Positions 4,565 to 29,164 of a stretch of DNA of 64,000 bases are shown here, piece by piece. This stretch comes from Methanosarcinales archaeon Methan_01 (GTDB taxonomy: Archaea > Halobacteriota > Methanosarcinia > Methanotrichales > Methanotrichaceae). The translations under genes and the position numbers were made by a program. The notes beneath the pieces are model-generated. The model ran no database searches and was not told the DNA's origin. It was given only the letters and a program-made list of their open reading frames with translations. Each line of letters begins with the position of its first letter. The first letter of the stretch is position 1. The DNA lies in the NCBI GenBank assembly GCA_001602645.1, contig LUYE01000014.1, forward strand, positions 1-64,000. Direction: 5' to 3'.

Positions 4565-5827
4565 CTACATCTTAATCTTTGCCAGGATCATATCCGCGTT
4601 CCCTGAGGAGATCGTCCAGCCGCAGGTGACGTATCCTCCGTCATCAGAGATCAGGACCGACGATCCACTCACCCTCCCCGAATCCGGGATGGTGAAGTCC
4701 CCCACCCTCGCCCCCGACCCGTCGGTCTTCAGAAGCCAGGAGTAGAGCCTTCCGGAGGAGCTCCAGCCTCCGACGATGTAGCCTCCATCCTCGGTGGCCT
4801 CCACCGTCGTCGCCAGGTCTCTGCCCGAGTCTCCGACGCTGAGGATCCTGCCCCTGATGGGGCTGCCCTGAGGATCGGTTATGATCAGCCACGCATCCCC
4901 ATCGGAGGCCTCCCCATCCCGGGTGGCGCTCGCCCCCCCGGCGACGACGTACCCTCCGCCCCTCCTCTCGATCACCGCCTCTCCGACGTCATCCCTCGAT
5001 CCGCCGAAGGTGACGTTCCAGACCTCCGACCCGTTCGAATCGGCCTTGAGGAGCCAGAGATCCCTCCCCCCGGCGCCGAAGGAGTCGGTGAAGCCGGTGA
5101 TGATGAAGCCGCCGTCGGCGGTCCCCGTTATCGAGCGGCCGACGTCGTCTCCTTTTCCGCCGAAGGTCCTGTTCCATACCTCTCGGCCCAGGGGATCGGT
5201 CCTGATCAGCCAGAGATCTCTTCCTTCGGAGCCGAAAGAGTCGGTCTCCCCGACGAGGAGGTACCCGCCGTCACCGGCTGCATAAAGGGAGGAGATCCAG
5301 TCGTCGCCGGCTCCCCCAAAGGTCCTGTTCCATATCTCTCGGCCCAGGGGATCGGTCCTCACCAGCCAGCCGTCGGAGCCGCCGGCTCCGAAGGATTCGG
5401 TCCCACCGGCGAAGGCGTACCCACCGTCATTGGCGGCGACGATCGCCACGCCCTCGTCGTCTCCTGGGCCACCGACCGTCCGGTTCCAGATCTCCCGGCC
5501 TTTTGAGTCCGTCGCGAGAAGCCATCCATCGTACCCGCCGGCTCCGAAGGAGTTGGTCTTTCCAACGACGACGAGGCCTCCGGAAGTCTCCAGGGCCGAG
5601 GCTCCGACGTCGAATCCCGGGCCGCCGAAGGTCCCCCTCCAGACCTCGCCTCTCGTCTCGAAGGCGCCGAAGGCGTAGAGGATCAGGACCAGGGTCGCTA
5701 AAAGGGCCGCCCCCATCACTAGATGCTCTTCGCTGAACCCGGTGGAGGTCAAGAGGGACCTGATCTTCCGGAACTTCTGCCTGGTGGGGGATTGGGCGCC
5801 CTGCCCTTCGGACATGAATTTCTCCAT
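4565..5827 (-). CDS. Membrane-anchored paralogue of the preceding repeat protein
   Basis: N-terminal TM 'HLVMGAALLATLVLILYAFGAF', then the same ~47-aa repeats; convergent with 3372..4535. Confidence 0.8.
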   Translation of the reverse strand: MEKFMSEGQGAQSPTRQKFRKIRSLLTSTGFSEEHLVMGAALLATLVLILYAFGAFETRGEVWRGTFGGPGFDVGASALETSGGLVVVGKTNSFGAGGYDGWLLATDSKGREIWNRTVGGPGDDEGVAIVAANDGGYAFAGGTESFGAGGSDGWLVRTDPLGREIWNRTFGGAGDDWISSLYAAGDGGYLLVGETDSFGSEGRDLWLIRTDPLGREVWNRTFGGKGDDVGRSITGTADGGFIITGFTDSFGAGGRDLWLLKADSNGSEVWNVTFGGSRDDVGEAVIERRGGGYVVAGGASATRDGEASDGDAWLIITDPQGSPIRGRILSVGDSGRDLATTVEATEDGGYIVGGWSSSGRLYSWLLKTDGSGARVGDFTIPDSGRVSGSSVLISDDGGYVTCGWTISSGNADMILAKIKM

Positions 5828-5931: not shown

Positions 5932-6147
5932 TTATTCTGAGGGATCTGGCGCCAGCTCATCGTATTCGAAGATCTCCTCGATTTTGACCCCGAAGATCCT
6001 CGCCATCTTGAAGGCCAGGTCGAGAGAGGGGTTGTACTTGTCCTTCTCTATCGCGATGATAGTCTGTCTCGTCACGCCCAGCTTCTTTGCGAGCTCTTCC
6101 TGGGTCAGATCGAAGATAGCTCTGTAGACTTTGATCTTATTCCTCAT
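5932..6147 (-). CDS. XRE-family helix-turn-helix transcriptional regulator
   Basis: 'MRNKIKVYRAIFDLTQEELAKKLGVTRQTIIAIEKDKYNPSLDLAFKMARIFGVKIEEIFEYDE', a classic small archaeal HTH_3. Confidence 0.93.
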   Translation of the reverse strand: MRNKIKVYRAIFDLTQEELAKKLGVTRQTIIAIEKDKYNPSLDLAFKMARIFGVKIEEIFEYDELAPDPSE

Positions 6148-6547
6148 CGCAGGGCTCGAATCCGTAGCGTCGGTTGTAGTATCCGTAGAGGGCAGAGTAA
6201 AGGATCATAAGAGCGCAGGCCGAGAAGGCCAGGGCAAACCCGGCGTTGATCAGCTCGGGATGCTCGTTCCTGGCGGCTATCAGCAATACGCCGACGAGGG
6301 CGCTCGCCGCCGCAAACGCTTCTACGGCAACCTTCGCCGCCCGCTCGCTCACCCTCTCGTCCCTCTCGTCGGCGACCACCTCTTTTATCCTCGATCTGCA
6401 GAGATGATAGAGAACCGCACCAACAGCCGCGGAGGCCAAAACGAGGGCCGCCTCGGCCATGACCGCAAACCATCCGGCGATGGCCACCGTCCCCACGATG
6501 ATGACCATTCTGCAGATCCGCGAGGTTTTTGCGTCCATGGGCATCAC
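6137..6547 (-). CDS. DUF2178-type membrane protein
   Basis: Four hydrophobic segments and 'VVADERDERVSERAAKVAVEAF'; overlaps the downstream XRE gene (common operon pairing). Confidence 0.75.
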   Translation of the reverse strand: MMPMDAKTSRICRMVIIVGTVAIAGWFAVMAEAALVLASAAVGAVLYHLCRSRIKEVVADERDERVSERAAKVAVEAFAAASALVGVLLIAARNEHPELINAGFALAFSACALMILYSALYGYYNRRYGFEPCDEE

Positions 6548-6548
6548 G

Positions 6549-6581
6549 ATGTAAATCTTCTATTACATTTAGTTATTTAAA
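6549..6581 (-). promoter_or_regulatory. Putative promoter/operator of the DUF2178-XRE operon: TTTAAATAA-CTAA-ATGTAA-N8-TTACAT
   Basis: Read directly on the minus strand; TATA-like element plus 6-bp dyad ATGTAA/TTACAT with 8-nt spacer. Same layout as 6719..6751. Confidence 0.6.
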
Positions 6582-6718
6582 CTTAACTAACACAACTTCA
6601 TCTCCAAGATCAGGGGCTCTTCGCCCCCTTCTCGTTTCTATTTTGCTGGAAACGATCCGCCGCCGAGTTTGATCAGACCGCCCGGGCGCATGACGTATCT
6701 TCTTTACAGATAGTAAAG

Positions 6719-6751
6719 TTTATATAACATTATGTAATTTAGGGGTTACAT
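6719..6751 (+). promoter_or_regulatory. Putative promoter/operator of the TPR array: TTTATATAA-CATT-ATGTAA-N8-TTACAT
   Basis: Read directly; same layout and spacings as 6549..6581 on the other strand. Confidence 0.6.
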
Positions 6752-6911
6752 AGGGTGGGGGAGTGGGGGCATTCCCTCCACCCGCTTTCATCTATGAAGC
6801 TGAGACGCAAAAGGCCTAGCTAGAGGTCGAAGGCTGGGGTGAGCCCACACGCCCCAGCCCAAATTTTACAATTCAGTTGAAGATGCAATTTGGTTTTAGA
6901 GGGGAGATGAA

Positions 6912-8042
6912 TTGGATGAGAGGCTGGGAGTTGTGATCGTCTTCGATCTGGATTCCTGGGAGATATTCGCGGCAGTTCTTCTGGCGATGCTATCGATATC
7001 TGCCCGCGCTCTGGCGGATGAGATGACCTCAAATGACTGGTTTTTGATCGGTCAGGAACTTTACGGAGCTGGATCTTACGAAGAGGCAGTCGCCGCTTAT
7101 GACGAGGCGATAGCCATGGAGCCGGATAAAGGGACTCTTCAGTTCTTCAAGGGGAACGCCCTTTACGCCCTCGCCATGGCCTCCGGGTTCGATCTCCCGA
7201 TCTCTGCGGGGGCGATCGATGCCTACGAGGAGGCCGTCAGGCTCGACCCGACGTCTGCAAAGCCTTGGTGGGGGAAGGCCAGAGTCCTGAGCCTCATATC
7301 AAACTCGCTGGAGGGGGATGAGCGGGCCGAAGTGATGGAGAAGGCGCTTTCTGCCATCAAGATGGCGACGGAGATCGATCCCTTCTTCGTCGACGCCTGG
7401 ATATGCAGGGGAAGGATCCTCGATGAGCTGGCCGCCCTAACCAGAGACTTCTGCAGGTACGACCAGTCCCTTCAGGCTTATGAAAGGGCGATCGAGCTTC
7501 TGCCCTTCAGCGACGCGAGGAGCCTGGCCCTCGCCTGGGACGGCAAGGTCGTCGCCCTCTCCCACCTGGCCCAAGATCTCGCCGATGGAGACGAGGGGGA
7601 GGAGGATCTAGATATCCGCGAAGAGGCCGCCTTTGCCCATGGCGGTGTCATCGGCCTCGGCTCCGAGTCGCCAGGCCTGGAGGTCCGCCTCAAGAGGGCG
7701 AGGGGCTTTGCCAACCTCGGCCGATATGACGATGCGATCGATGCCTACGACGAGGCGGCAGATGCCGCCCCCGAAGATCTTCCGGCGTACGCCGCCCTCG
7801 TCCTCGTCGAGAAGGCGGCCGTCCTTCTGGAGATGGGAGAGGGGGGGCGATCCTTGGCGTCCCTGAAGGAAGCCACCGTCGCCGACCCTGGGAACGCGAC
7901 GGCCTGGAGAAAGAGGGGGGATCTCCTCTCGGCTTTGGGCCGGCGATCCGAGGCAGAGGCTGCCCGCTCCAGGGCGCGGGAGCTGGAGGAGAAGGGATCA
8001 TCTCCGCATTTTTCTTCAAATTCTACGGGGCGAAGGAATTGA
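6912..8042 (+). CDS. Secreted TPR-repeat protein
   Basis: TPR units such as 'YGAGSYEEAVAAYDEAIAMEPDKG'; N-terminal hydrophobic segment. Confidence 0.85.
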   Translation: MDERLGVVIVFDLDSWEIFAAVLLAMLSISARALADEMTSNDWFLIGQELYGAGSYEEAVAAYDEAIAMEPDKGTLQFFKGNALYALAMASGFDLPISAGAIDAYEEAVRLDPTSAKPWWGKARVLSLISNSLEGDERAEVMEKALSAIKMATEIDPFFVDAWICRGRILDELAALTRDFCRYDQSLQAYERAIELLPFSDARSLALAWDGKVVALSHLAQDLADGDEGEEDLDIREEAAFAHGGVIGLGSESPGLEVRLKRARGFANLGRYDDAIDAYDEAADAAPEDLPAYAALVLVEKAAVLLEMGEGGRSLASLKEATVADPGNATAWRKRGDLLSALGRRSEAEAARSRARELEEKGSSPHFSSNSTGRRN

Positions 8043-9382
8043 AGGTGAGTGAATTGAGGAATAGATACCCAACGGTGGGATTTTGGGCGGTCTCCGCCCT
8101 CCTGCTGGCTGCCCTGGCCGCATCCTGGGCCACGGCATCGGCAGAGGAAAAGTCCGTGGCAAACTCATCGGAAAGCTGGCGAGAGAGGGGGGACGAGCTT
8201 TGGGCCGACGGCTCTCTTGAGGAGGCCCTTGAGGCTTACGACAAATCTCTCTTGATAGACCCTGAGAATGGCGACGTCTGGCTGGGCAAAGCCCTGATCC
8301 TCGATATTCTGGGCAACACAAGCGAGTCTCAGGAAGCTTATAGAGAGGCAGTTGACGCATTTGACGAAGACCTGAAGGTCGATCCTGAAGATGCCCAGTC
8401 CTGGTGGGGAATGGGCGTTGCTCTGGACAGCCTGGGCAGGCAGGAAGAAGCCACAGAAGCACGAGAGAAGGCTGCTTTTATCTTCAACCAGACCCTGGAA
8501 GAGAACCCTGACGACGCCGAAACCTGGTTTGACATGGCGGAAGTTTTGGTCGGCCTCTTGAGACGAGAGGAGGCGATCGAGGCATACGGGAAGGCCATCG
8601 AGCTGAACTCGACAAAAGCCGACTACGCCGCGATTTCTCAGGGAGTCCTGCTGCAGGAGCTTGGAAGGTATGATGAATCTTTGGTGGCCTTCGACAGAGC
8701 CATCGAGCTGATCCCGGAATACGATGCTCAGATGCTGGCCACGGTCTGGTACCATAAGGCCAATTCACTGGATAACAACAACAGACCAAAGGAGGCTCTA
8801 GAGGCCTACGATGTGGTCACAGAGCTAGATCCCGGGAACAAAGGAGCTTGGCTCGGCAAAGGAACTATGCTCGAAGATTTGGGCATGTACGACCAGTCGT
8901 TAGAGGCCTTCGCAACGGCTCTGAAGCTGGACCCTCAACTGTTCTATGCTTGGACGAAAAAAGGCGACTTGCTGATAAAGCTGGGCCAAAACTCCGAAGC
9001 CCAGACGGCCTACGCCGAGGCTCTTGAGATCTGTGATCTGGAAATTAAGAAGGACCCACATGACTACGGGGCCTGGCGTAATAAGGGCGTGGCCCTCTAC
9101 AAAATGGGGGAGTTTGAAGAAGCCATCGAAGCCTACAACGAGAGCATAGAGAACTCTCCGCCCGACTTCACAGTCTCCTATGCATTGGTTGGAAAAGCAG
9201 ATTCCCTCCGAGCCCTAGGCATGAACGAGGAGGCTTTGGCAGCCTATCGAGAAGCCATCGAACTCTATCCGCTGGACCCCGAGGCCTGGCAGGGGAAGGG
9301 GGAGGCGGAGCTATCCCTGGGAAGACGGATAGAAGCGGATCATGCCTTCAACATGGCTGAAAAGCTGGGGTATCAGGGGTGA
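8039..9382 (+). CDS. Secreted TPR-repeat protein
   Basis: Signal segment 'FWAVSALLLAALAASWATASA', many TPRs, C-terminal 'AFNMAEKLGYQG'. Confidence 0.88.
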   Translation: MKVSELRNRYPTVGFWAVSALLLAALAASWATASAEEKSVANSSESWRERGDELWADGSLEEALEAYDKSLLIDPENGDVWLGKALILDILGNTSESQEAYREAVDAFDEDLKVDPEDAQSWWGMGVALDSLGRQEEATEAREKAAFIFNQTLEENPDDAETWFDMAEVLVGLLRREEAIEAYGKAIELNSTKADYAAISQGVLLQELGRYDESLVAFDRAIELIPEYDAQMLATVWYHKANSLDNNNRPKEALEAYDVVTELDPGNKGAWLGKGTMLEDLGMYDQSLEAFATALKLDPQLFYAWTKKGDLLIKLGQNSEAQTAYAEALEICDLEIKKDPHDYGAWRNKGVALYKMGEFEEAIEAYNESIENSPPDFTVSYALVGKADSLRALGMNEEALAAYREAIELYPLDPEAWQGKGEAELSLGRRIEADHAFNMAEKLGYQG

Positions 9383-9433
9383 CCCTGATCTAATTTTTTA
9401 TCAGTTTATTGATGAAGTGATCGAGGATATGAG

Positions 9434-10069
9434 ATGAATGCGAGAATCGCCGTCGCATGCCTGATCCTGGCAGCGATCTATTCTGCGCCCTCGGGGGCGG
9501 AGGATGCGCCCCTCGTCGCCGAGATCCCGAGGCTCGAGGGCGTCTGGACCCTCGATATGGAGGGCGATATGCTCTCTATGGTGGTTTACCAGTCGGGCCC
9601 TGAGATCGCCGGGGCCTGCACCGGAGAATATCCCGAGCCCTGGAACGCTGTAATGACGGGTTCGGTCTCGGGGAACGAGGTCAACCTCTTCCTCCTCTCC
9701 CTTCAGGACGGAGTCGGCATCATGACTGAGATATCGGGAGGGGAGATGGATGGGGGGATCAAGGGGAGCTTCGTCCAGACCAACAGCCTTGGAGGCTGGA
9801 GGAGGGGGAACCTGACCGGATTTATGACGAATCATGACACCTCGGCCTACGAGCCCGCACCTCCGACCTTTCGGCCCCTTTCTTCGGAGCCGTCGACCGA
9901 GCCCTCCAAGCCTCTCGAAGCCGAGGATGGGGGCACGGAGGATAAACGAGGCGGATCGGGCGGCATCTCGCCCCCGGGGGGTTCAGAGGCAGGGGAGAGG
10001 CGCTTTGTGGACGTGACGACTCAGGCTGAGAGGGTCTTCTACCTCGGATGGGCCTGGAACCCCGGCTGA
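9434..10069 (+). CDS. Secreted hypothetical protein
   Basis: Signal peptide 'MNARIAVACLILAAIYSAPSGA'; no family recognised. Confidence 0.65.
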   Translation: MNARIAVACLILAAIYSAPSGAEDAPLVAEIPRLEGVWTLDMEGDMLSMVVYQSGPEIAGACTGEYPEPWNAVMTGSVSGNEVNLFLLSLQDGVGIMTEISGGEMDGGIKGSFVQTNSLGGWRRGNLTGFMTNHDTSAYEPAPPTFRPLSSEPSTEPSKPLEAEDGGTEDKRGGSGGISPPGGSEAGERRFVDVTTQAERVFYLGWAWNPG

Positions 10070-10132
10070 AGATACAAATGCCGCACTGAGATGGATCGCA
10101 TTTCGATGACATACTGGGGAGTGAGGAAAAAA

Positions 10133-11452
10133 ATGCGCGAAAAAGTAGAATCGACAATGGCCCGCGATGGGCTATCGAAGTTGGGGATGGGGTCCAGGTT
10201 TGTCCTCATCCTGATGGCACTGTCTCTGCTATGCGCAGCTGTTCTGGCGCAGGAGAGCACGACAGAGGATTGGCTGACGAAAGCTCGTGAGCTGCAATTG
10301 ATCGGCACGCCCGAAGAGACGTTGGCGGCCTACGATAAGGCCATAGAGATCGACCCACAGAACGTCCAGGCCTGGCTCGGCAAGGGGATGGCGGAGTCAA
10401 CGCTGGGAGACCAAGGCGAGGCCAGCAGGAGCTTCGAGAAAACCCTCGACCTCTGCGATGAGGCGATAGAGGCTGATCCTGAGGACGCGGACGCCTGGTA
10501 TTTCAAGGCCGAAGTCCTATTTCGGATGGGCCGAACTGAAGAGGCCCTCGAAGCGTACGACAGGGTCATCGAGATCCGACCTGGCGATTACCTGACCATG
10601 GAGAGGAAGGCTGAGTATCTCCTCGTTCTGGGAAGGTACGACGGGGCTCTGGAGACCTTCGAGGGGGCCATCGAGCTTCGACCTGCCGATGATACGGACC
10701 AGCTGGCTCTGGTCTGGTCTGCCAAGGCCCAGATTCTGGAGATCTCCAGCAGATACGACGACGCCCTGGAAGCTCTGGACAGGGCTGTAGAGCTGGACCC
10801 TGAGAACGCGTACTACTGGATAAGCAAGGGCTATGTAGCCTCGGAGATGGGCGAAACCGACGACTCCATCGCCGCCTACGATGAGGCCCTCCTGATAGAT
10901 CCCAACAGCACCGCAGCCTGGAGCGCCAAGGCCTCAGAGCTGGCCCGTGCCAAGAGGTACGAAGAATCCCTGGAAGCCTACGATGAGCTGTTGTCGATAG
11001 ACCCTTCTTCAGCCCAGGGCTGGCTGGACAAGGGAGACGTCCTAGAGGAGATGGGCCGAGCTGATGATGCCAGTGAAGCGTTCCAGAGATCTCTGGAGGC
11101 TTTGGATGAAGCCCGATCGAACGACACCGCGGCTCTGGTCGTCAAGGGCGGGGCTCTTTTCAGGCTCTCCAGGTACGATGAGGCCACGGCGGCTTACGAC
11201 GAAGCCATCGAGGTAGCTTTGCCCACCTCACCCAAATATCACACCTCCCAGGCGTTGAGCGGCAAGGGCGACGTGCTGCGCGCCGAGGGGAAGAACGAGG
11301 AGGCCATTTCGGCTTACGATGAGGCTATCGATATCGAGCCCACATTGAGCGAGGCCTGGCATGGCAAGGGCCTGGCACTGAACGCTCTGGGCCGAGTGAC
11401 CGAAGCTGGATCGTCGTTCTACGTGGCCAATAAGCTGGGGTATCGAGAATGA
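10133..11452 (+). CDS. Secreted TPR-repeat protein
   Basis: 'SRFVLILMALSLLCAAVLAQESTTEDWLTKARELQ' plus TPRs; ATG 10133 preceded by GGAGTG. The ORF track starts at 10091. Confidence 0.87.
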   Translation: MREKVESTMARDGLSKLGMGSRFVLILMALSLLCAAVLAQESTTEDWLTKARELQLIGTPEETLAAYDKAIEIDPQNVQAWLGKGMAESTLGDQGEASRSFEKTLDLCDEAIEADPEDADAWYFKAEVLFRMGRTEEALEAYDRVIEIRPGDYLTMERKAEYLLVLGRYDGALETFEGAIELRPADDTDQLALVWSAKAQILEISSRYDDALEALDRAVELDPENAYYWISKGYVASEMGETDDSIAAYDEALLIDPNSTAAWSAKASELARAKRYEESLEAYDELLSIDPSSAQGWLDKGDVLEEMGRADDASEAFQRSLEALDEARSNDTAALVVKGGALFRLSRYDEATAAYDEAIEVALPTSPKYHTSQALSGKGDVLRAEGKNEEAISAYDEAIDIEPTLSEAWHGKGLALNALGRVTEAGSSFYVANKLGYRE

Positions 11453-11496
11453 TCCACCCAAATATTCCCTTTTTATGGGGTCTTCGAGGTGAATGA

Positions 11497-12864
11497 ATGA
11501 TAAGCAAATACGTCGATGACGCGGCCCTCGCTAAGCTTGGGCCCGGCAGAAGGGCGATGATGGCCGCCGTCTTTTGCCTGCTGGCATTTTGCTTCCCGGC
11601 GACGGCGGAAGGAGATACGGCCGAAGACTTGATCGGGATGGGCCTTGAGCTTTACCAGAACCGCTCCTACCAAGAGGCCCTGGAGGCCTACGATGAGGCC
11701 CTCCTCCTATCCCCGGACGATCCCCGGGCGTGGATGGGCAAGGGCAAGGTCTTTAGCGCGCTGGGAGATTACAACCAGTCACTTTTGGCCTACCAGAACG
11801 CCACCAGGATATCTCCCGACGATCCGGAGGCCTGGTTTGGGGTGGGGCTGAACCGATTCCTCTTGCACGACCTCAACGATTCCCTGAAGGCCTCGGAGAG
11901 GGCCCTGGAGATGGACGGAAACTACACCAGGGCGTGGGAGCTGAAAAGCACAGTCCTAGCCCATATGGGCAAAAACGACGAGGCCCTAGAGGCCTCCAAA
12001 AGAGCCAGAATGAGCTCTGCTCCATCCGATACGGAGATGCTCTCTCATTCCTGGGTATCTGAGTCTTTCATCCTTCGTCAGATGGGGCGCGATGATGAGT
12101 TCCTGGCGGCCTTGGAGAACGCCACGACTCTCGACCCCAGAAACTACGACGCCTGGATCCTCCTCGGCGAGGCCCTCCAGGGGAGGGGCGAGTACGATCG
12201 GTCCCTTGCGGCCTTCGACAGCCTCCTATCCAACATAGCTCCGACCAGTCCCCCGTTCTTGGCCCTGGTCCTCATCGACAAGGGGAGCGTCCTTATTGAT
12301 ATGGGCCGGTACGAAGAGGCGAGGGGTCTCTACCAGCAGACGATCGACCTCAACTTCTCCGACGAATCCCTGGACCAGTACTATCTTGGCAGGGCGGAGC
12401 TCGGCGAGGGCGTCTCTCTCCTCCGGCTCGGCGATTATGAGGCGGCCTTGGAGGCCTTCAACCGATCGATGGAGGCGGAGCCCGATCTGGCAGACGATGC
12501 CTGGAGGGGGATCGGAGACGGACGCATGGGGCTTGGGTCCTATGAGGAGGCCCTTTTGGCTTATGATACGGCCCTGGAGATTTATCCAGAGTCTGTGTCT
12601 GTAAACGCAGAACGAGGCCATGCCTGGAAGGGGAGGGGCGACGCCCTGATGGCTCTCGGGCGGGATGATGATGCCCTTTTGGCCTATCAGAACGCCTCCA
12701 TAGCCTACGATCTCGCCATCGATATGCCGGATCAGGGAAGACAATCATATCCCCTCAACGGGGAGTTCTGGCTGAACCGGGGAGTCGTCCTGGAGGCGTT
12801 GGGGCTTGGGGCCCAGGCTGAGGAATCCTATGGGAAGGCCAGGGAGATGGGGTATCGGGATTGA
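11497..12864 (+). CDS. Secreted TPR-repeat protein
   Basis: 'MMAAVFCLLAFCFPATAEGDTAEDLIGMGLELYQNRSYQEALEAYDEALLL'. Confidence 0.87.
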   Translation: MISKYVDDAALAKLGPGRRAMMAAVFCLLAFCFPATAEGDTAEDLIGMGLELYQNRSYQEALEAYDEALLLSPDDPRAWMGKGKVFSALGDYNQSLLAYQNATRISPDDPEAWFGVGLNRFLLHDLNDSLKASERALEMDGNYTRAWELKSTVLAHMGKNDEALEASKRARMSSAPSDTEMLSHSWVSESFILRQMGRDDEFLAALENATTLDPRNYDAWILLGEALQGRGEYDRSLAAFDSLLSNIAPTSPPFLALVLIDKGSVLIDMGRYEEARGLYQQTIDLNFSDESLDQYYLGRAELGEGVSLLRLGDYEAALEAFNRSMEAEPDLADDAWRGIGDGRMGLGSYEEALLAYDTALEIYPESVSVNAERGHAWKGRGDALMALGRDDDALLAYQNASIAYDLAIDMPDQGRQSYPLNGEFWLNRGVVLEALGLGAQAEESYGKAREMGYRD

Positions 12865-12902
12865 CCCTAGAACCGTTTTATGAGATCAAAGGAGGTTTGT
12901 AA

Positions 12903-14621
12903 ATGAAAACGAGACTTGTCATCGCTCTGTTAGGGATAGCTATGCTCACCGCCTGTACTTTTGCGCAGGAGAACACCCCTGGTTACTGGCTGAAAAAAGG
13001 CTATGAACTGAGCCTAAACGGTTCTGACGAAGGGGCTCTTCAAGCCTACGAAAAGGCCCTTCAAATAGATCCTGAAAACTCCTTGGCCTGGATCAACAAA
13101 GCCAATGTGCTCTACCGTCTGAATAGAACATCCGAATCCAGCCAGGCCTATCATAAGGCTCTGGAGATCACGGACAAAATGATTGAGGCCGATCCCAAGA
13201 ACGTAACCCTCTGGTTAGGAAAGGGAATACTCCTCAATAATGTTGGCGATATCGAAGGAGCTGTAGAGGCCTTTGATAACGCCAGCAAAATTGATCCAGA
13301 GGACGACATGGCCTGGAAGATGAAGGGCGTTCTTCTGGCAAGAGATCTGCAGAGGTATGATGAAGCCGTCGAGGCATATGATGTCGCTCTGCAGATAAAT
13401 CCCGAGGATGGAGAAGTCTGGAACCTTAAGGGCGACGCCCTGAAATCTTTGGGCCGTCAGGCCGAGGCGGAAGCAGCCTATTCCAAGGCGAGAGAGCTGG
13501 GGTATGAGACGCCATTCGCCTCGTCACTGGTTCTCACCAACGTCGTCTCGGTAGGCGATGACGAATTCATCGAGATGACCAACGATGGAGCCGATGCTCA
13601 GACCTTCGAGGACCTGACCCTCACCATCGACGGCGCAGAGTCGGTCGTCCTTCCCGATTTCACCCTTGATCCCGGCGAGAGCATCAGGTTCCACCTCGGC
13701 GAGGGCGATAGCAACGAGACGGACGTCTATCTGAACGGCGATCTCGCCCTGGACGACGTCTCCGGAAACCTGACGCTGAAAGACTCTGCAGGAACGCTGG
13801 ATAAGTTCGCAGCCTACTGGACGCCAGAGGCGAACCCGGAATACTGGATCGAGAAGGGACGACAATTACAGAGCGTCGAATCTTATGAAGATGCTCTCGA
13901 TGCGCTGAATAACGCCACCGATGTGGATCCCCAGAACGCGATGGCCTGGCTCTCTAAGGCCCAAATTCTCGGGCCCTCCTCGGGCAGGTACAACGAGTCT
14001 CTTGAAGCCTGTGAGAAGGCCATAGAGATAGATCCTGAAAATCCTGAATCCTGGCGTTTGAAGGGCCTCATCCTCATGAACCTGGGGAGGGACGAGGAGG
14101 CTTTGGTCGCCTTCGATGAGGCCATAGAGCTTGATCCGCAAAATGGGTTCGCTTGGCATCTGAAAGGCAATTTGCTGCAGCGTCTAGGCCGTGAAGATGA
14201 GGCTGATGCGGCTTTATCCAGGGCTGAAGAGCTGGGGTTCACATCGCCTCTTGAAGGCATGATCGCCATCACCGAGATCGCGGCTGACGGCGAGGACGAA
14301 TTCGTCGAGATATCCAACAACCTCGATGAGGTCAAAAACCTCAGAAGATGGACCCTGGTGGTCGACGGGGATGAGGCGATATCTCTGGTCCTTCCCGAGT
14401 ACATCCTGGAGCCTGGGGAAAAGGTCAGGGTCCACTTTGGAGCGGGCGAGGACGGCGAGGCCGATCTATTCATGGAGAGCGAGATCGCCCTCAACGATGC
14501 CGCCACCAACGTCACCCTGAGGGACGAGGGCGGGAGGGAGATCTCTTTTCTGGGGTTTGAACGCCTTCCAGATGGCGGAGTGGTGATGAGGATGAGAGAC
14601 GGCGGGGAGTTTGGATATTGA
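12903..14621 (+). CDS. Secreted protein alternating TPR blocks with two lamin-tail-domain-like modules
   Basis: TPRs, then 'LVLTNVVSVGDDEFIEMTND...LPDFTLDPGESIRFHLGEG', TPRs again, then 'IAITEIAADGEDEFVEISNN...LPEYILEPGEKVRVHFGAG'. Confidence 0.8.
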   Translation: MKTRLVIALLGIAMLTACTFAQENTPGYWLKKGYELSLNGSDEGALQAYEKALQIDPENSLAWINKANVLYRLNRTSESSQAYHKALEITDKMIEADPKNVTLWLGKGILLNNVGDIEGAVEAFDNASKIDPEDDMAWKMKGVLLARDLQRYDEAVEAYDVALQINPEDGEVWNLKGDALKSLGRQAEAEAAYSKARELGYETPFASSLVLTNVVSVGDDEFIEMTNDGADAQTFEDLTLTIDGAESVVLPDFTLDPGESIRFHLGEGDSNETDVYLNGDLALDDVSGNLTLKDSAGTLDKFAAYWTPEANPEYWIEKGRQLQSVESYEDALDALNNATDVDPQNAMAWLSKAQILGPSSGRYNESLEACEKAIEIDPENPESWRLKGLILMNLGRDEEALVAFDEAIELDPQNGFAWHLKGNLLQRLGREDEADAALSRAEELGFTSPLEGMIAITEIAADGEDEFVEISNNLDEVKNLRRWTLVVDGDEAISLVLPEYILEPGEKVRVHFGAGEDGEADLFMESEIALNDAATNVTLRDEGGREISFLGFERLPDGGVVMRMRDGGEFGY

Positions 14622-14711
14622 CCTTATTCGCCATAGCCGAAAAATTTCGTGGAGCTGGAAGGGCATGAGGTCTCACCACGACCTCCCCATCCTTTCCAAA
14701 GGAGGCGAGTT

Positions 14712-15407
14712 GTGAAACGAGAGCTTCTCATCCTTGCGGTGATCGCCGCGGTCCTGACGAGCTCGGCGGGCGCGGCCAATTACATCTACGAGCGGTCCAA
14801 GATCGAGGGAGTGGGGTACAGAAGCCACGAGCTGGCGGCAGGGACCGCTGAAGGCGACAGCGGCCAGAAGGTGGCTCGGACGGTCTCCGGTAGCGGCAGA
14901 TTCTTCGAGCGGACGGAGTTTGAGCTGGACCGCTGTAGCGGGACGATAAACTACACCCAGGAGGCCGAGTTCGAGTACTTCCCGGTCAGCTATCAGACCG
15001 GCACCTACGACCAGAAGTGGCAGGATCGGCTCTGCGTCGCCAACTACGATGTCGGCGCGGTGGTCACCGAGCAGTACGCCCAGGCGGAGCACCTCCAGAA
15101 GAATACCGAGGTGAAGACGAGACGAGATGACGGACCTTCTGATGAGGCGGACGGATGGGGAGGCGGCTGCTTCGGCTGCGGCGAATGCACTGGCGCCCTG
15201 GAGGCGAACTTCAACTCCAACGTCATCGGCGTCGCCCACATCGGCTGGCTCTCTCGGGACGTGGCCACCAACGGCAAGGGCCGCCACTACGAGTGGGGCA
15301 GGTCCGTCGAGGACCTGACGGGGGTCTTCTCCATCGAGAAGTTCATCCAGCTCTGGGGGAACGGGACCTGCGGGTCCGTGAACGTCGATTGGCTCCCATG
15401 CATCTGA
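14712..15407 (+). CDS. Secreted hypothetical protein with a Cys-rich patch
   Basis: GTG start with GGAGG upstream; 'VKRELLILAVIAAVLTSSAGA' signal; 'GGGCFGCGECTG' motif. Confidence 0.65.
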   Translation: MKRELLILAVIAAVLTSSAGAANYIYERSKIEGVGYRSHELAAGTAEGDSGQKVARTVSGSGRFFERTEFELDRCSGTINYTQEAEFEYFPVSYQTGTYDQKWQDRLCVANYDVGAVVTEQYAQAEHLQKNTEVKTRRDDGPSDEADGWGGGCFGCGECTGALEANFNSNVIGVAHIGWLSRDVATNGKGRHYEWGRSVEDLTGVFSIEKFIQLWGNGTCGSVNVDWLPCI

Positions 15408-15480
15408 TACGTGACGAATGACTGCGGCTAAAAGTCGCTTTTATGGTCAACCTTGAATGTAAAAAATGGAGTGGATTGAG

Positions 15481-16557
15481 ATGAAAGAAAAAACCGGATC
15501 GTTGGCGGCCAAAGGATGGCTGCCAAAGAAGAGTACGAGTGCCAGGTTCGCTATCGCTCTGATCGCCTTGGCGGCGCTCTGCAGCTGCACCCTGGCGCAG
15601 GAGATGACGGCAGAGGACTGGTACAAAAGGGGCCAGGACCTAGAAGAAAAGGGATCTAACGACGAGGCCATCGCAGCGTATGATATAGCTACTCAGCTAG
15701 ATCCCGATAACGCTACTATTTGGGGTGATCTGGCTTGGAATCTCGATGTCGTATCTCGTCGCAATCATAATTTGGGAGAGTATAACAAAGCACTCCAAGC
15801 TTATAACAAGTCTATCGACTTATATGATAGACTTCTTGAAGCGGAACCGCTGAACTCTGAGACATGGTACGAAAAAGGCGTCATCTTTAGCAAAAGAGCA
15901 GATGGAAGAGGATCGGCTATTACTGTACTTGGCATTAACAATGTGTCTGCATATCGTGATTGGGATCATGACCATGATGAGGCTATTGGGTGTTTGGATA
16001 AATCCATCGAGATTAACCCGCTATATGCTCCTGCTTGGTTGCTTAAAGGATGGATGACCCTTCATTTTCCAACTAAATCTCAGGAAGCCATCAACTGCTT
16101 TGAGAAGGCCATAGAGCTCGATCCAAATAACTCAAATCTGGTAGCTGATGCTCTGGCTGGCAAAGCAGCTGCACTGGCAATATCTGGGAAGCAAAACGAA
16201 TCCATCGAGGCTTTCGACAGTGCGATCCAAGAGACTCCTAATAGCAGCCAGCTCTGGATAGATAAAGCCGTACAGTTTGCTGATCAAGGAAACTACGAAG
16301 AGACCATCAAGGCATTTGATAGGGCAGCCGAGATTGATCCTCAAAATATATACGTTTGGCTTAGTAGGGGTCTCGTCCTTTCGAGAAACTTGTCCAGATA
16401 TAACGAATCCATTGACGCCTATGATAGAGCTCTCCAAATAAATCCCAAGGATATCAACGCATGGAACGGTAAAGGTGACGCTCTGAAGGCCCTCGGTCGC
16501 AACTCTGAGGCTGATGAATCTTACGCTAAGGCAAAGGAGCTGGAACGCGTAGGCTGA
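15481..16557 (+). CDS. Secreted TPR-repeat protein (shared-leader subfamily)
   Basis: Leader 'MKEKTGSLAAKGWLPKKSTSARFAIALIALAALCSCTLAQEMTAEDW', GGAGTG 7 nt before ATG, TPRs. ORF track start 15466. Confidence 0.88.
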   Translation: MKEKTGSLAAKGWLPKKSTSARFAIALIALAALCSCTLAQEMTAEDWYKRGQDLEEKGSNDEAIAAYDIATQLDPDNATIWGDLAWNLDVVSRRNHNLGEYNKALQAYNKSIDLYDRLLEAEPLNSETWYEKGVIFSKRADGRGSAITVLGINNVSAYRDWDHDHDEAIGCLDKSIEINPLYAPAWLLKGWMTLHFPTKSQEAINCFEKAIELDPNNSNLVADALAGKAAALAISGKQNESIEAFDSAIQETPNSSQLWIDKAVQFADQGNYEETIKAFDRAAEIDPQNIYVWLSRGLVLSRNLSRYNESIDAYDRALQINPKDINAWNGKGDALKALGRNSEADESYAKAKELERVG

Positions 16558-16614
16558 GCCTTCACCAAATTTTTTGCCAACATATCTGTACGATAAAATG
16601 TGGAGTGGGTTAAC

Positions 16615-17817
16615 GTGAAAGAAAAAACCGGATCGTCGACAGCCCTCAGCAGGCTGCCGAGTATGAGAACAAGCGTCAGGTCCGCCATCGCTCTGATCGC
16701 CTTGGCGGCGCTCTGTAGCTGCACCCTGGCGCAGGAGAACACCGCAGAGGACTGGTTCAACCGGGGCCAGGAGCTGATGGATAACGAGTCCTATGAAGAA
16801 GCCCTGAGGGCGTATGACAGCGCCATAGAGCTCGATCCAGAGGATGCCAGATTCTGGATGGGCAAAGGCGATACCCAAATGCGAATGGGTGACTATGACG
16901 AATACTTGGTGACCTACGAAAAAGCGTTGGATCTCATCAACGAATCCCTGGAAGCAAACCCTCTGGATGCAGAGGGCTGGTTTGTGAAAGGAGAGCTCCT
17001 TGATAGGCTGTACAGGTATGATGGGGCTCTCGAATCCTATAATCGGTCGCTGGAGATAGATCCAACGGATAAAGAGGTCTGGTTCGAGAAGGGCAATGCT
17101 TTGGATACGGCTGCTGTATTTCAGACGCAGGATCCTGAGCGGATCAGAGCCTATGAAGATGCGATCATCGCTTATGATGAAGCCCTTAAGCTCGATCCGG
17201 ATTACGGGAACGCCTGGATGGGGAAGGGCTACTCTCTTAGTAACCTAGCCGCATCCAACGATGATCTCGTCAAGTTTAACGAGTCACTGAAGGCTTTTGA
17301 CAAAGCTATCAAGCTGATACCAGACAACGATACAGTGAACCTCGCTTTTGCCTGGGAGGGCAGGGCCGTCGCTCTCTCGAACATTGGCGATGCCCTCGAA
17401 GATGCTGGCAGGGAAGATGAGGCCAACGCCAGCCGTGAGGAGGCTTTGGAGTCCTATGATAGTGCCATAGAGCTTGATCCAAGCTTCACAGGCCTGGAGG
17501 CTCAGCTAAATAAAGCCGGCGATCTGGCTGAGCTAGGCAGGTATAATGAATCCCTTGATGCATTAGATAAGCTCATTGAGACTTTGCCTGCTGATTTTGC
17601 CTTGTTCGCTGCCTCAGTCCTGGAAGTTAAGGGCAACGTTCTCGAAATGATGGGCGATTATGAGGGGGCCATCATCGCGTTCGATAGAGCTCTGGAGATT
17701 GATCCCTCCAACATGTATGCCATGCAGGAAAAAGGCTCTGCCCTCCAGTCGCTAGGCCGCATTTCGGAGGCAGAAGCCGCTTTTGCCGAGGCCGAAGAGC
17801 TGGGGTACGAGGAGTGA
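16615..17817 (+). CDS. Secreted TPR-repeat protein (shared-leader subfamily)
   Basis: Leader 'VKEKTGSSTALSRLPSMRTSVRSAIALIALAALCSCTLAQENTAEDW'; GTG start preceded by GGAGTG. ORF track start 16600. Confidence 0.88.
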   Translation: MKEKTGSSTALSRLPSMRTSVRSAIALIALAALCSCTLAQENTAEDWFNRGQELMDNESYEEALRAYDSAIELDPEDARFWMGKGDTQMRMGDYDEYLVTYEKALDLINESLEANPLDAEGWFVKGELLDRLYRYDGALESYNRSLEIDPTDKEVWFEKGNALDTAAVFQTQDPERIRAYEDAIIAYDEALKLDPDYGNAWMGKGYSLSNLAASNDDLVKFNESLKAFDKAIKLIPDNDTVNLAFAWEGRAVALSNIGDALEDAGREDEANASREEALESYDSAIELDPSFTGLEAQLNKAGDLAELGRYNESLDALDKLIETLPADFALFAASVLEVKGNVLEMMGDYEGAIIAFDRALEIDPSNMYAMQEKGSALQSLGRISEAEAAFAEAEELGYEE

Positions 17818-17872
17818 CCCCAGTCAATTTTTTGAGATCACATCTATGCGAAAAAATGGAGTGGGAATTGAG

Positions 17873-18652
17873 ATGAAAGAAAAAATCGGATCGTTGGCAG
17901 CCCTCAGCAGGCTGCCGAAGATGAGGACGAGCGCCAGTTTCGCCATTGCTCTCGTCGCCTTGGCGGCGCTCTGCAGCAGCGGCACCCTGGCGCAGGAGAA
18001 TACAGCAGAAGACTGGCTAAATATCGCCTACGGTCTGAGCGCCAATGGATCTTACGAAGAGGCCATCCAGGCTTACGATAAGGTTCTGGAGATAGACCCT
18101 AGGGATTACACTGCGCTGATCAACAAGGGCCATGACCTGAAGTTCTGGGCCTTGGATCTGTACAACGAAGCCCTGGAGATCACAAACGAGATCCTGGAGG
18201 AGGATCCCGACGACGCTCTGGCCTGGCAGGGGAAGGGGGCGGCTTTGAGCGGCCTTAACAGGCAGGGGGAGGACGATGAGGCCTATGCCATGGCCATTGA
18301 GGTACTCAATAAGACTCTAGAAAAAGATCCATCAGATGGAGAAGCGTGGTTTTTGAAGGGCGAAAACTACGCCAACATGCATGATGCTGAGGCCGCCCTG
18401 ATAGCTTACGACAAGGTCATCGAGCTGAATTACACGCCGAGGATCGAGGCCGCCTGGGTAACGAAGGCGATCCTCCTGGCAGTGCTGCAGAGATACGATG
18501 AGGCCATTCAGGCATCTGAGATGATCATTGAGCTGAACCCGAAGAGCGCGTCAGCCTGGTCGACCAAGGGTTACGTTCTCGGAGAGCTAGGCCGACAGGC
18601 CGAGGCGGAAGAGGCCTTCGCTCGGGCCAGGGAGCTGGAACGAGGGAGCTGA
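17873..18652 (+). CDS. Secreted TPR-repeat protein (shared-leader subfamily)
   Basis: Leader 'MKEKIGSLAALSRLPKMRTSASFAIALVALAALCSSGTLAQENTAEDW'. ORF track start 17783 overlaps the upstream gene. Confidence 0.88.
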   Translation: MKEKIGSLAALSRLPKMRTSASFAIALVALAALCSSGTLAQENTAEDWLNIAYGLSANGSYEEAIQAYDKVLEIDPRDYTALINKGHDLKFWALDLYNEALEITNEILEEDPDDALAWQGKGAALSGLNRQGEDDEAYAMAIEVLNKTLEKDPSDGEAWFLKGENYANMHDAEAALIAYDKVIELNYTPRIEAAWVTKAILLAVLQRYDEAIQASEMIIELNPKSASAWSTKGYVLGELGRQAEAEEAFARARELERGS

Positions 18653-18709
18653 TTAGTCCTCCAAATTTTTTACCATCATCTCTGTGTGATAAATGTGGAG
18701 TGAGTTGAC

Positions 18710-20170
18710 TTGAAAAGATACACCAGATCGTCGTCGGCCCTCAGAGGGCCATCGAAGTTGGGCGCCGGGGTCAGGCTTGCCATAGCCTTTGCGGCTCTGA
18801 TTTTGCTCTGCACCTCTGCCCTGGCACAGGAGAAGACCGTAGATTATTGGATGAATAAAGCTAATGAGCTTATCCATAAAGACCTTGACGAAGAAGCAGT
18901 CTTAGCTTATGACGAAGTTTTGAAGCTCGATCCAAAGAATGAGACCGCTTTACTTCGCAAGGCATCGACGCTTTATACGCTGGGAAATGAGAGCGAAGGG
19001 CAAGAAACTTACAACGAAGCCCTCCTCCTAATCAAGGAAAACCTGAGAACGAATCCCCAGAATGCTAAATCCTGGCAGAATAAGGCTATAGCTTTAAACG
19101 GTCTGGGCAAGAGAGATGAGGCTAAAGAGGCAAATGAGAAGGCTCTTGTCCTCTTCGATCAGAGCCTTGAGGAGGACCCGGAAAATGTCAGTCTATGGAA
19201 GGGCAAGGCGGATGTACTGGCCTTCTTGGGTAGATGGGAAGACGCTCTGCAGGCTTACAGCAGAGTGACGGAGATCAATCCCAACGATTACCAGGCATGG
19301 GGAAGAAAAGGCGAGTTTCTCGGTATGATCGGAAAGTACAACGAATCTCTGGTGGCGTTAGATAAAGCCATCGAAATCATACCGGCAGATAATGACGACG
19401 ATGTTCAAGCCTGGAATTTAGCTAAAGTCTCTGTCCTCCACACCTCGAACCGAATTGAAGAAGCTTTGAGCCTCCTTGACAACCTCACGGATACTTATCC
19501 CCAGAACAAAAAGGCCTGGAGCCTCAAGGGCTACGATCTGGCAAAGCTGGGCAGATACAACGAATCCTTGGAGGCATATGATGAAGCTCTTGAGCTGGAC
19601 TCAAAGGACGCTCAAATCTGGAGCACCAAAGCCCGACAGCTCGCCGAGATGAATAGGTATGACGAGGCTCAAGAGGCGTTCGACAAGGCCATTGAGTTGA
19701 TGCCGAGCGATGATATCAAAGAGATTGAACAAGTTGTGCAGATATGGCTCGACAAAGGAGATGCTCTGAACAAGACCGGCAATGTAGATGCCTCCGAAAA
19801 AGCCTTCCAGAAGGCATTGGAGATCTCAGATGAGGTTCTGAAGAACGATTCCAGCCAGACGAGCCTCATGCTCTTGAAAGGGAATGCCCTCTTCAATCTC
19901 GCCATGTATGATGCTGCCGTAGAAGTCTACGACCAGGTCATCGAGACCGCATCGCCAAACTCTCGCCACGTGTCAAGTGCCTGGATCGGCAAGGGCAGAG
20001 CTCTGCAGGCATTAGGCAGGAACGAAGAGGCTCTGGAAGCCTACAGACAGGCCCTGGAGATAAATCCTACGCTAGTCGAAGCATGGCAGGGCAAAGGAGA
20101 ATCCCAGAAAGCATTGGGAAGAGCCAGAGATGCAAGCCTGTCATTTTACGTGGCAGAGAAGCTGGGGTAG
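18710..20170 (+). CDS. Secreted TPR-repeat protein (shared-leader subfamily)
   Basis: TTG start after GGAGTG; 'KRYTRSSSALRGPSKLGAGVRLAIAFAALILLCTSALAQEKTVDYW'. Confidence 0.88.
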   Translation: MKRYTRSSSALRGPSKLGAGVRLAIAFAALILLCTSALAQEKTVDYWMNKANELIHKDLDEEAVLAYDEVLKLDPKNETALLRKASTLYTLGNESEGQETYNEALLLIKENLRTNPQNAKSWQNKAIALNGLGKRDEAKEANEKALVLFDQSLEEDPENVSLWKGKADVLAFLGRWEDALQAYSRVTEINPNDYQAWGRKGEFLGMIGKYNESLVALDKAIEIIPADNDDDVQAWNLAKVSVLHTSNRIEEALSLLDNLTDTYPQNKKAWSLKGYDLAKLGRYNESLEAYDEALELDSKDAQIWSTKARQLAEMNRYDEAQEAFDKAIELMPSDDIKEIEQVVQIWLDKGDALNKTGNVDASEKAFQKALEISDEVLKNDSSQTSLMLLKGNALFNLAMYDAAVEVYDQVIETASPNSRHVSSAWIGKGRALQALGRNEEALEAYRQALEINPTLVEAWQGKGESQKALGRARDASLSFYVAEKLG

Positions 20171-20233
20171 GTGGAGTAAACCCATCTACAATTTTTGATC
20201 ATATTTGGACTGAAAAAAGAGGAGTGGGTTAAT

Positions 20234-21700
20234 GTGAACGAAGAAACCGGATCGTTGGCGGCCCTCAGCGGGAGGCCGAATTTTGGCGCAGCGGCCAGGC
20301 TCGCTCTAGCCTTAGCGGCTTTGGCGATCTTCTGCCTTCCCTCCGGAGCCCAGGAGAACACAACCGACTACTGGATGGAGAAGGCCCAGGAGCTGTACCA
20401 AAACGGCTCCATCGAGGAGGCGATCTCAGCTTACGATGAAGCCCTGAATATCGATCCCGAGAACGAGACGATCCTCATCCGAAAGGCCTTCGACCTCATG
20501 GTCGTGGGAAAGGTTAACGAGTCTGCCGAGACCTACGAGAAGGCCCTCGCCCTTCTGGATGAGGACCTGGAGGAGGACCCCGGCGACGCCAAGGCCTGGC
20601 AAGATAGAGCCCGGGTTCTGGGAGGTCTTAATAGACCTGAAGAGGCCGCCCAGGCGTATGAAGAGGCCCTGGACGCCTACGACCAGAGGATCGAGACTGA
20701 TCCGAAGGACGCCGACGCCTGGATGGGCAGGGCCAACGTTCTTTTAAACCTCGGCAGGTGGGTGGAGGCTTCCGAGGCCTATGACAAGGTTACAGAGCTG
20801 AAACCCCTCGACTACAACGTCTGGTGGAGAAAGGCCGAGGTGATCAGCGCCATAGGTGACATGAACGAGTCCGTCGAGGCCTACGATAAGGCCATCAGCC
20901 TGATACCCGCAAACGATACAGCAGAGCTCGCCCTGGCCTATGCTGCCAAGAGCGAGGATCTCGCAGCTGCGGAGAGGTGGGGGGGCGCCCTGGAGGCGGT
21001 CGATAAGTCTCTTGAGCTGAACCCCAAGAGCGGCACCTGGTGGCACTTCAAGGCCTTCATTCTGACGGAGCTGGAGAGGAAGGAGGAGGCGCTGGCGGCC
21101 TTCGACGAGGCGATCAGGCAGAACCCCGAGGACGTCGGGAGCTGGCAGTGGAAGGCGAGCCTCCTCGTCGGGATGAAGAGGTACGATGAATCCCTGGAGG
21201 CTTACGACGAGGCCCTAGACCTGATCCCGGAGAGCGACGCGGAGACCCTGGCCCAGACCTGGCTTTCCAAGGGGACAGCTCTGAACAAGACCGGAAAGCA
21301 GGAAGAGGCGACGGAGGCCTTCGCGAGGTCGCTGGCCCTTTACGAAGAGGCCATCATGGAGGATCCCGGCGACATCAGCATGCTGCAGATGAGGGGCAGA
21401 GCCCTCTACGAGCTCGGGAGGTACGACGAGGCCTTGGAGGTCTATGATCAAATCCTCGAATCCTCTCCCGGCGTCGAGCCTCACTGGGTCGATACCAGCG
21501 CGTTGGTAGGCAGGGGCGATGCTCTACTGGCGCTGGGCAGAAACGAGGAGGCCCTGGATGCCTACAACAGGGCAATAGATCTGGGCCCGCATGATAGCAC
21601 CGCCTGGCATGGAAGGGGAGAGGCCCAGAGGGGCTTGGGCCAGGTTTACAACGCCACCATGTCGCTTCTGGTGGCCGATAAGCTGGGGTACGAGGAGTGA
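20234..21700 (+). CDS. Secreted TPR-repeat protein (shared-leader subfamily)
   Basis: GTG start after GGAGTG; 'VNEETGSLAALSGRPNFGAAARLALALAALAIFCLPSGAQENTTDYW'. ORF track start 20195. Confidence 0.88.
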   Translation: MNEETGSLAALSGRPNFGAAARLALALAALAIFCLPSGAQENTTDYWMEKAQELYQNGSIEEAISAYDEALNIDPENETILIRKAFDLMVVGKVNESAETYEKALALLDEDLEEDPGDAKAWQDRARVLGGLNRPEEAAQAYEEALDAYDQRIETDPKDADAWMGRANVLLNLGRWVEASEAYDKVTELKPLDYNVWWRKAEVISAIGDMNESVEAYDKAISLIPANDTAELALAYAAKSEDLAAAERWGGALEAVDKSLELNPKSGTWWHFKAFILTELERKEEALAAFDEAIRQNPEDVGSWQWKASLLVGMKRYDESLEAYDEALDLIPESDAETLAQTWLSKGTALNKTGKQEEATEAFARSLALYEEAIMEDPGDISMLQMRGRALYELGRYDEALEVYDQILESSPGVEPHWVDTSALVGRGDALLALGRNEEALDAYNRAIDLGPHDSTAWHGRGEAQRGLGQVYNATMSLLVADKLGYEE

Positions 21701-21755
21701 CCCCAGCCCAAATTTCTTGGGAATTATTGAAGGATAAAATGTGGAGTGGGTGGAT

Positions 21756-22244
21756 GTGAATGGAAAAAATGGACTATTGGCGGCATCCGGCGAACTGCTG
21801 AAGTCAGGAGCGGGCACGAGGTCCGCTCTCGCCCTGATCGCCTTGACGGCGCTCTGCAGCTGCACTTTGGCTCAGGAGAAGACGGCAGAGGACTGGATTG
21901 AAAGGGGCGGGGAACTATTCAGGAACCAGTCCTTTGAAGGGGCGGCTGAGGCTTATGGAACGGTCATTGAGGCTGCTAGCTTGAATAAGACTCTGCTGGC
22001 AGCAGCCTGGAAGGGCAAAGGCCGGATCTTTTACGATAATGGCAGGTATGAGGCGGCCATCGAGGCCTACGATAAAGCCATTGAATTTGCGCCTTCCAAT
22101 GTAACGCCTGTACTGGATCTGTATGCCATGAACCTCTCTGCTACAGCCTGGCATGCTACGGGTGAGGCCCTGATGGCGCTGGGCCGAAACTACGAGTCAG
22201 AGGCCGCCTTCTCCAGGGCGGGGGAGCTGGGGTACGAGAAGTGA
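21756..22244 (+). CDS. Short secreted TPR-repeat protein (shared-leader subfamily)
   Basis: GTG start; 'VNGKNGLLAASGELLKSGAGTRSALALIALTALCSCTLAQEKTAEDW'. ORF track start 21741. Confidence 0.85.
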   Translation: MNGKNGLLAASGELLKSGAGTRSALALIALTALCSCTLAQEKTAEDWIERGGELFRNQSFEGAAEAYGTVIEAASLNKTLLAAAWKGKGRIFYDNGRYEAAIEAYDKAIEFAPSNVTPVLDLYAMNLSATAWHATGEALMALGRNYESEAAFSRAGELGYEK

Positions 22245-22300
22245 CCTATGTCGAAATTTTTGTTGATCATATCTGGATGGAAAAAGTGGAGTGGGTAGAT

Positions 22301-23343
22301 GTGAAAGGGAAAACTGGAATGTTGGCGGCCCTCGGCGGGCGGTTGAAGTCAGGAAGCGGGAGGGAGATCTGTTCTTGCTCAGATCGCTTTGGCAGCTCTT
22401 TGTAGCTGCGCCTGGGCGGCAGGGGAAGACAGCAGAGGACTGGCTCAGAAAAGGCCTGGAGCTGATGACGAAAGGCTCCCTGGAAGAATCGGTTCAGGCC
22501 TTCAATAAAGCGATTGAGGCCGATCCCCAGAACGCCGAGGCTTGGAGGTACAAAGCCCTCATGCTTCGAGATCAGGGCGAGTACGATAAGGCAGTCGCAG
22601 CCTTCGATAAGGCCATCAGGCTTGACTCCCAGAACATGGAGGCCAGGGTGGAGAAGGCCGGAACCCTCATGATTATGGGAAGGATTTCCGAGGCGGCCAT
22701 CGCGCTGGATGCATTTGCTGATACGATCCCAGTGAGCCCGGAAGAGAGACTGTGGCAGTCCGATGCCTGGCGGATCAAGGGAAATATCCTTGTAGAGAAG
22801 GGGAGCAATGAAGAGGCCCTCAAGGCCTATGACAGAGCCATAGAGCTGGGCTCCGGCCAACCTCTGGGTTCAGCCTCAGCCATGGCGTGGTTGAACGAAG
22901 GCCATCTTCTCATGAGGATGGAACGCTATGAAGATGCCCTTTTGGCCTATGATAATGCAGCTGAACCTGATTTACCTCCTGTCAACAGCGAGGCCTGGCT
23001 TGGTAAGGGAAGGGCTTTGGATGCATTAAGCAGACACTATGAGGCGGTCGAGGCTTACAACAGATCTGTTGAGGCCTTCGAGATCGACCTCATTATAAGC
23101 CCGGAGGCTGCCAAGTTCTGGAAGGAGAAGGCAGACGCCCTGGATGGCGTGAGCAGGTACGAGGAGGCAGCGTCTGCCTACGAGAAGGCGGTCCAGCTCT
23201 TCCGAAAGGATATCGAGATCAATGCTGAGCAATCCAACGGCTGAAGATATTGGTGGTTGGGTTATGCCCTCTTGGCTTTGGACCGCCAGGCCGAGGCGGA
23301 AGCTGCCTTCGCCAGGGCCAGGGAGCTGGGGTATGAGGGTTGA
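22301..23343 (+). pseudogene. Decayed TPR paralogue: signal peptide split over three frames and an in-frame TGA before the conserved C-terminus
   Basis: Frame A 'VKGKTGMLAALGGRLKSGSGR', frame B 'VLAQIALAALCSCAWA', frame C (ORF 22291..23244) 'KTAEDWLRKGLEL...'. After TGA 23242-23244 the same frame continues 'RYWWLGYALLALDRQAEAEAAFARARELGYEG*'. Confidence 0.75.
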
Positions 23344-23402
23344 ACTCCAGCCAAAATTTTTTGTGATTATATCTGGATGGAAAAAAAGAGGAGTGGGTTG
23401 AT

Positions 23403-24773: not shown

Positions 24774-24829
24774 TCTCGATCGAAAATTTAATAATCGTTT
24801 GAAGGTTGAGAAAAGTGGAGTGGGTTGAT

Positions 24830-27397: not shown

Positions 27398-27452
27398 AAT
27401 CGTTTAGAGGTATGTTGTCATCTTCGAATGACAAAACGAGGAGTGGATTGAG

Positions 27453-29084: not shown

Positions 29085-29164
29085 TTTGGGATGTCCGGCC
29101 AAAACTTCAATCTTTGCGGATTTAGGCCGGATGGGACTGGCCGGCTTTAGGGAAGTCTAGATCG

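Follow-up and report, generated by a model that had tools for sequence, protein, structure and literature searches.

Gene content of the locus

The window analyzed here is a stretch of 64,000 nucleotides from the genome of an archaeon of the family Methanotrichaceae, in which a minus-strand gene pair encoding a DUF2178 membrane protein and a regulator of the XRE type is found opposite a plus-strand array of genes for secreted proteins (Table 1). The membrane protein matches DUF2178 (PF09946) with 100.1 bits against a Pfam gathering cut-off of 22.8, and its sequence includes several hydrophobic stretches, with a DER motif, invariant in the alignment, in a charged loop. The listed open reading frame begins with a GTG at 6547; the ATG at 6538, which is conserved in relatives, is the more likely start. 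The DUF2178 and XRE genes overlap by 11 nt and the gene pair is kept across the class, and the two are presumably co-transcribed as one operon. The XRE protein aligns to CylR2 almost over its full length (phmmer E 8e-12, residues 3-63 on 4-64), and the closest solved sequence is PDB 9k3w ("Transcriptional regulator, PbsX family"; E 6e-19), for which no paper was found in the literature search. Searches of the literature on archaeal CylR2 relatives and on transcripts of M. harundinacea gave nothing usable. A homologue of the FGGPGDD-repeat protein is located directly behind XRE in seven relatives, and the operon therefore probably comprises three genes, this membrane-anchored protein being the third and presumably transcribed together with the other two.

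On the plus strand, from 6912 to 29749, small gaps separate co-directional ORFs for secreted proteins, most of which are TPR proteins. These ORFs, about 18-20 in number, look serially duplicated, and their signal peptides are very similar.

Table 1. Features of the DUF2178-XRE locus and of the facing secreted-protein array.
Feature	Position	Strand	Basis or remark
FGGPGDD-repeat protein, one N-terminal hydrophobic stretch	4565..5827	-	probable third operon gene
XRE (Cro/CI, CylR2-like) regulator, 71 aa, helix VTRQTIIAIE	5932..6147	-	homology
DUF2178 membrane protein	6137..6538	-	Pfam 100.1 bits; alignment
P1 operator O1 (putative), perfect dyad before DUF2178-XRE	6549..6568	-	sequence, genome scan; kept in relatives
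P1 O2, weak second dyad (6/12), in 21-bp register over BRE/TATA	6570..6589	-	may not be functional
P1 TATA box TTTAAATAA	6573..6581	-	sequence; start site predicted
P2 O3, possible third dyad (8/12)	6690..6709	+	some congeners do not keep the left half
P2 O2, tandem dyad (9/12) located 21 bp upstream of O1 and across BRE and TATA	6711..6730	+	
P2 TATA box TTTATATAA	6719..6727	+	sequence; start site predicted
P2 operator O1 (putative), perfect dyad facing the TPR array	6732..6751	+	genome scan; kept in six species
Structured RNA, leader or small RNA	6752..6870	+	fold, conservation
First secreted TPR gene, TTG start	6912..8042	+	TTG and Shine-Dalgarno-like sequence also in relatives
Rest of co-directional secreted-protein (mostly TPR) array	8039..29749	+	transcription from P2 presumed

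Twin promoters and the composite pattern

On the minus strand, from 6581 to 6549, the promoter P1 reads TTTAAATAA-CTAA-ATGTAA-TAGAAGAT-TTACAT, and on the plus strand, from 6719 to 6751, P2 reads TTTATATAA-CATT-ATGTAA-TTTAGGGG-TTACAT. Both strings are present as quoted in a preliminary description, which had proposed a twin architecture, and they agree in gap, half-sites and spacer length. A scan of the 2,608,796-base genome returned the perfect dyad ATGTAA-N8-TTACAT at 6549-6568 and 6732-6751 and no further perfect match. When up to two mismatches were allowed, the whole genome yielded 34 dyads versus 30 matches to the reversed pattern, for which reason only perfect or near-perfect dyads are informative; in the shuffled window 0.33 matches are expected even at this tolerance. 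A composite pattern of BRE/TATA plus dyad, searched with up to three mismatches and with the reversed pattern as control, matched P1 and P2 and no other position of the genome analyzed here. Among 50 genomes of the family there were 25 matches, spread over 10 genomes, and none for the reversed control, and a close XRE is present in all 10 of the genomes that bear a composite promoter.

Genes behind the composite promoter

The P2 dyad before the TPR array is conserved in six species. Genome G010 carries a second, unlinked secreted TPR gene with a similar promoter (three mismatches), while in G015 five such promoters were found within about 22 kb of XRE, before secreted FGGPGDD-repeat proteins and beta-helix proteins. 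The same kinds of protein are preceded by composite promoters in G048, and in G008 such a promoter also stands before a secreted HEAT-repeat protein. The occurrence of one composite promoter before TPR, HEAT, beta-helix and FGGPGDD-repeat secreted proteins suggests a surface-protein regulon.

Two of these genomes show signs of rearrangement at the promoters. In G015 (L066, L067; 1.838-1.874 Mb) three of the five promoters are nearly identical and are found amid transposase-like ORFs, and the promoter-gene units look duplicated. Around position 10441 of L068 (G048) a target promoter is now placed before an rRNA-methyltransferase-like ORF, the original secreted-protein gene having possibly been lost, perhaps by deletion.

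The region downstream of P2

The stretch of about 115 nt that separates P2 from the first TPR gene has a strong predicted fold (z -4.06) and ends in a terminal hairpin (6832-6859) followed by AAATTTT. The element is kept in six species, all of which have this hairpin, and the T run after it is present in four of them. Comparison with Rfam gave no match up to E 1, and covariation within the RNA is thin, with three pairs showing double changes and an unfavourable covariation term. In four congeners the structure is apparently closed by a stem of a G-rich 5' and a C-rich 3' strand. A leader peptide is not supported, as the frame of about 40 codons seen in four relatives is broken in the window and in G011, as judged by eye.

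The strength of this fold and the maintenance of the hairpin, with its T run in four species, would also suit a different scheme, in which XRE autoregulates at P1 while P2 mainly drives a small RNA of about 115 nt, and the array has promoters of its own and is not directly controlled. We consider this scheme unlikely. The T run is absent in two of the six species; the composite promoters of G015, G048 and G010 lead to secreted-protein genes without any such RNA; and in the window only about 50 nt separate the hairpin from the TPR start, a distance in which no further promoter with an operator was seen. Because the T run is missing in two species and the promoter in G015 directly contacts its gene, a leader is tentatively favoured over a small RNA.

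Tandem organization of the putative operators

Across 50 loci, secondary dyads peak at exactly -21 from the primary dyad (mean 8.28/12, z 5.0); in 27 of these loci the dyad at -21 scores at least 9/12, and a weak peak is also present at -42. P2 scores 12/12, 9/12 and 8/12 at 0, -21 and -42, and P1 scores 12/12 and 6/12. As read from these scores, the operators are tandem dyads with a pitch of 21 bp, i.e., two helical turns. Since P2 combines a 12/12 and a 9/12 dyad with a possible third, versus the one strong dyad at P1, binding at P2 is expected to be cooperative and its repression tighter. Upstream of the P2 TATA box there is also a conserved palindrome, CTTTAC-N5-GTAAAG (6702-6718), composed of the right half of O3 and the left half of O2; a separate activator site is not needed here because both halves of the palindrome fit the tandem spacing of 21 bp.

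Activation of transcription is known from some Cro/CI proteins, and the extra half-sites upstream of the TATA box at target promoters could be taken to mean that XRE works as an activator or in both directions, with tandem dyads upstream that bring in the transcription machinery. This is improbable, however, given that the strongest and most conserved dyad is downstream of the TATA box and the second one over BRE/TATA, an arrangement expected to block initiation. Judging from the position of the sites, the sign of the regulation is very probably repression.

Conservation of the dyad and covariation with the recognition helix

In a survey of the class, 58 XRE loci were taken together with DUF2178 and the 700 bases upstream of XRE were scanned. 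A dyad with at most one mismatch was found at 53 of the 58 loci, versus a mean of 0.20 and a maximum of 1 in shuffles and 3 for the reversed pattern; the surveyed sequences are related and these counts are not independent. When spacers of 2-14 were tried, perfect dyads occurred at spacer 8 (34 loci) and otherwise only at spacer 3 (2). Nine out of ten Methanosarcina genomes have the perfect dyad in one or two copies, one of them at the DUF2178-XRE promoter. Closer to the window, the P1 and P2 sites are both kept in G008, G009, G010, G011 and G013 despite changes of spacer bases, with one or two mismatches at both sites of G010 and at the P1 site of G013, and some congener P2 sites read ATGTAA-N8-TGACAT. 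G015 retains XRE and the five target promoters and has lost the dyad at the regulator promoter; autoregulation is therefore not universal. Most DUF2178-XRE loci outside the class have no recognisable ATGTAA dyad; six of the outside loci, all with the RRE-type helix described below (L185, L187, L192, L201, L202, and L204), carry ATGTTA-N8-TAACAT at a matching distance upstream of XRE.

The half-site follows the recognition helix of the regulator: XRE proteins with a VTRQT helix (TRQ type) pair with ATGTAA or ATGTCA half-sites, and those with a VRRET helix (RRE type) pair with ATGTTA-N8-TAACAT. The count was made on sites matching at all ten bases that remain when the discriminating one (base 5) is set aside. 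TRQ-type sites (n = 47) were 37 AA, 8 AC, 1 AG, 1 CT and no TT, and RRE-type sites (n = 14) were 13 TT, 1 GT and no AA. The corresponding Fisher p of 4e-14 is descriptive only, because the sequences share ancestry and two sites were counted at some loci. At L205, which lies outside the class and encodes a TRQ-type XRE, the half-site is mixed, and many RRE-type loci lack a full dyad match. Both types are found within the family of the window, and its own genome encodes an RRE paralogue (G000 contig 55, 26424-26612; L225; VRRETI type), which was fetched after the count had been made and has an ATGTTA-type site matching at nine of the ten bases (one mismatch). The L225 regulator gene adjoins a gene for another membrane protein with the DER motif and has its own cluster of ATGTTA-type sites. 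Short of an experiment, this covariation is the strongest indication that the dyad is very probably read by XRE itself.

It could still be argued that another regulator reads the dyads, which would then lie beside the XRE gene only by coincidence, and the G015 regulator promoter, being without a dyad, would agree with this. Against it, the dyad accompanies DUF2178-XRE throughout the class, and base 5 of the dyad covaries with the XRE helix, also between paralogues in one family, which makes such a regulator very improbable. That two A+T-rich promoters are alike by chance, both dyad halves being A+T-rich, can be ruled out for practical purposes by the uniqueness of the perfect sites in the genome, the reversed controls at zero, the shuffles near zero, and the conservation of the sites.

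Discussion

The preliminary description had offered as the simplest reading that XRE autoregulates and also controls the first gene or genes of the TPR array, with the DUF2178 membrane protein as a possible signal input. Autoregulation at P1 is well supported computationally, by the phylogenetic footprint at the 53 loci of the class and by the covariation of half-site and recognition helix, and control of the array is supported by the position of P2 before it in six species and by the similar promoter of the unlinked TPR gene. The tandem 21-bp operators, the structured RNA, the probable third operon gene and the wider surface-protein regulon go beyond that description.

Starting from the sites, their conservation, the helix covariation, the tandem register and the regulon members as shown by sequence comparison, we propose, with good though not full confidence, that XRE represses both the DUF2178-XRE operon (P1) and the secreted-TPR array (P2) through the 20-bp dyad, and that DUF2178 relays a signal to it. 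The 71-aa Cro/CI-type protein would bind ATGTAA-N8-TTACAT as a dimer. From P1 it would very probably repress its own operon, to which the FGGPGDD membrane protein probably belongs along with DUF2178-XRE, and from P2, very probably, the divergent secreted-TPR array, which read-through would be expected to cover. Repression would be achieved by covering the promoter between the BRE/TATA box and the expected start site. A signal from the envelope, probably passed on by the DUF2178 membrane protein, would release XRE, much as is believed of CylR1 and CylR2.

A broader reading, to which we would give roughly even chances, is that DUF2178-XRE is a widespread archaeal system of one-step signalling from membrane to DNA. 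Its tandem 21-bp dyads would be read by a code in which TRQ specifies ATGT(A/C)A and RRE specifies ATGTTA, the code would insulate co-resident paralogues from each other, the Methanotrichaceae would have recruited the system to banks of secreted repeat proteins, and the structured leader RNA would be a second layer of control in one genus. For DUF2178, a family named by no paper in the searched library, the analysis provides a testable role. A candidate operator and specificity code are supplied for a regulator that Methanosarcina, a genus amenable to genetics, also possesses, and a prediction is made as to which envelope proteins of Methanothrix-type methanogens switch together.

Archaeal repressors which act downstream of or over the TATA box include MDR1 and LrpA. 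The predicted mode of action, sterically hindering the recruitment of polymerase or TFB, would be the same here; the protein families and operators are different. With regard to DUF2178 (PF09946), the window protein is a clear member with the invariant DER motif, and differs in being found with a putative regulatory partner and operator.

The closest analogue of the locus, to which we liken it without classing it as a member, is CylR1/CylR2 from the cytolysin operon of Enterococcus faecalis, in which a membrane protein acts together with a small Cro/CI repressor to control a divergent operon for secreted products (PMC3709268). CylR1 has three predicted TM helices, and DUF2178 is likened to it by gene arrangement. 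The locus differs from CylR1/CylR2 in that the promoter is an archaeal TATA/BRE promoter, the targets are secreted repeat proteins and not a lantibiotic, and the operators are tandem 21-bp dyads. What the two share is a small Cro/CI regulator (about 66-71 aa) that is homologous by sequence (CylR2 structure 1utx), the pairing of its gene with a membrane-protein gene, and a divergent promoter serving secreted products, the promoters of regulator and targets being near each other.
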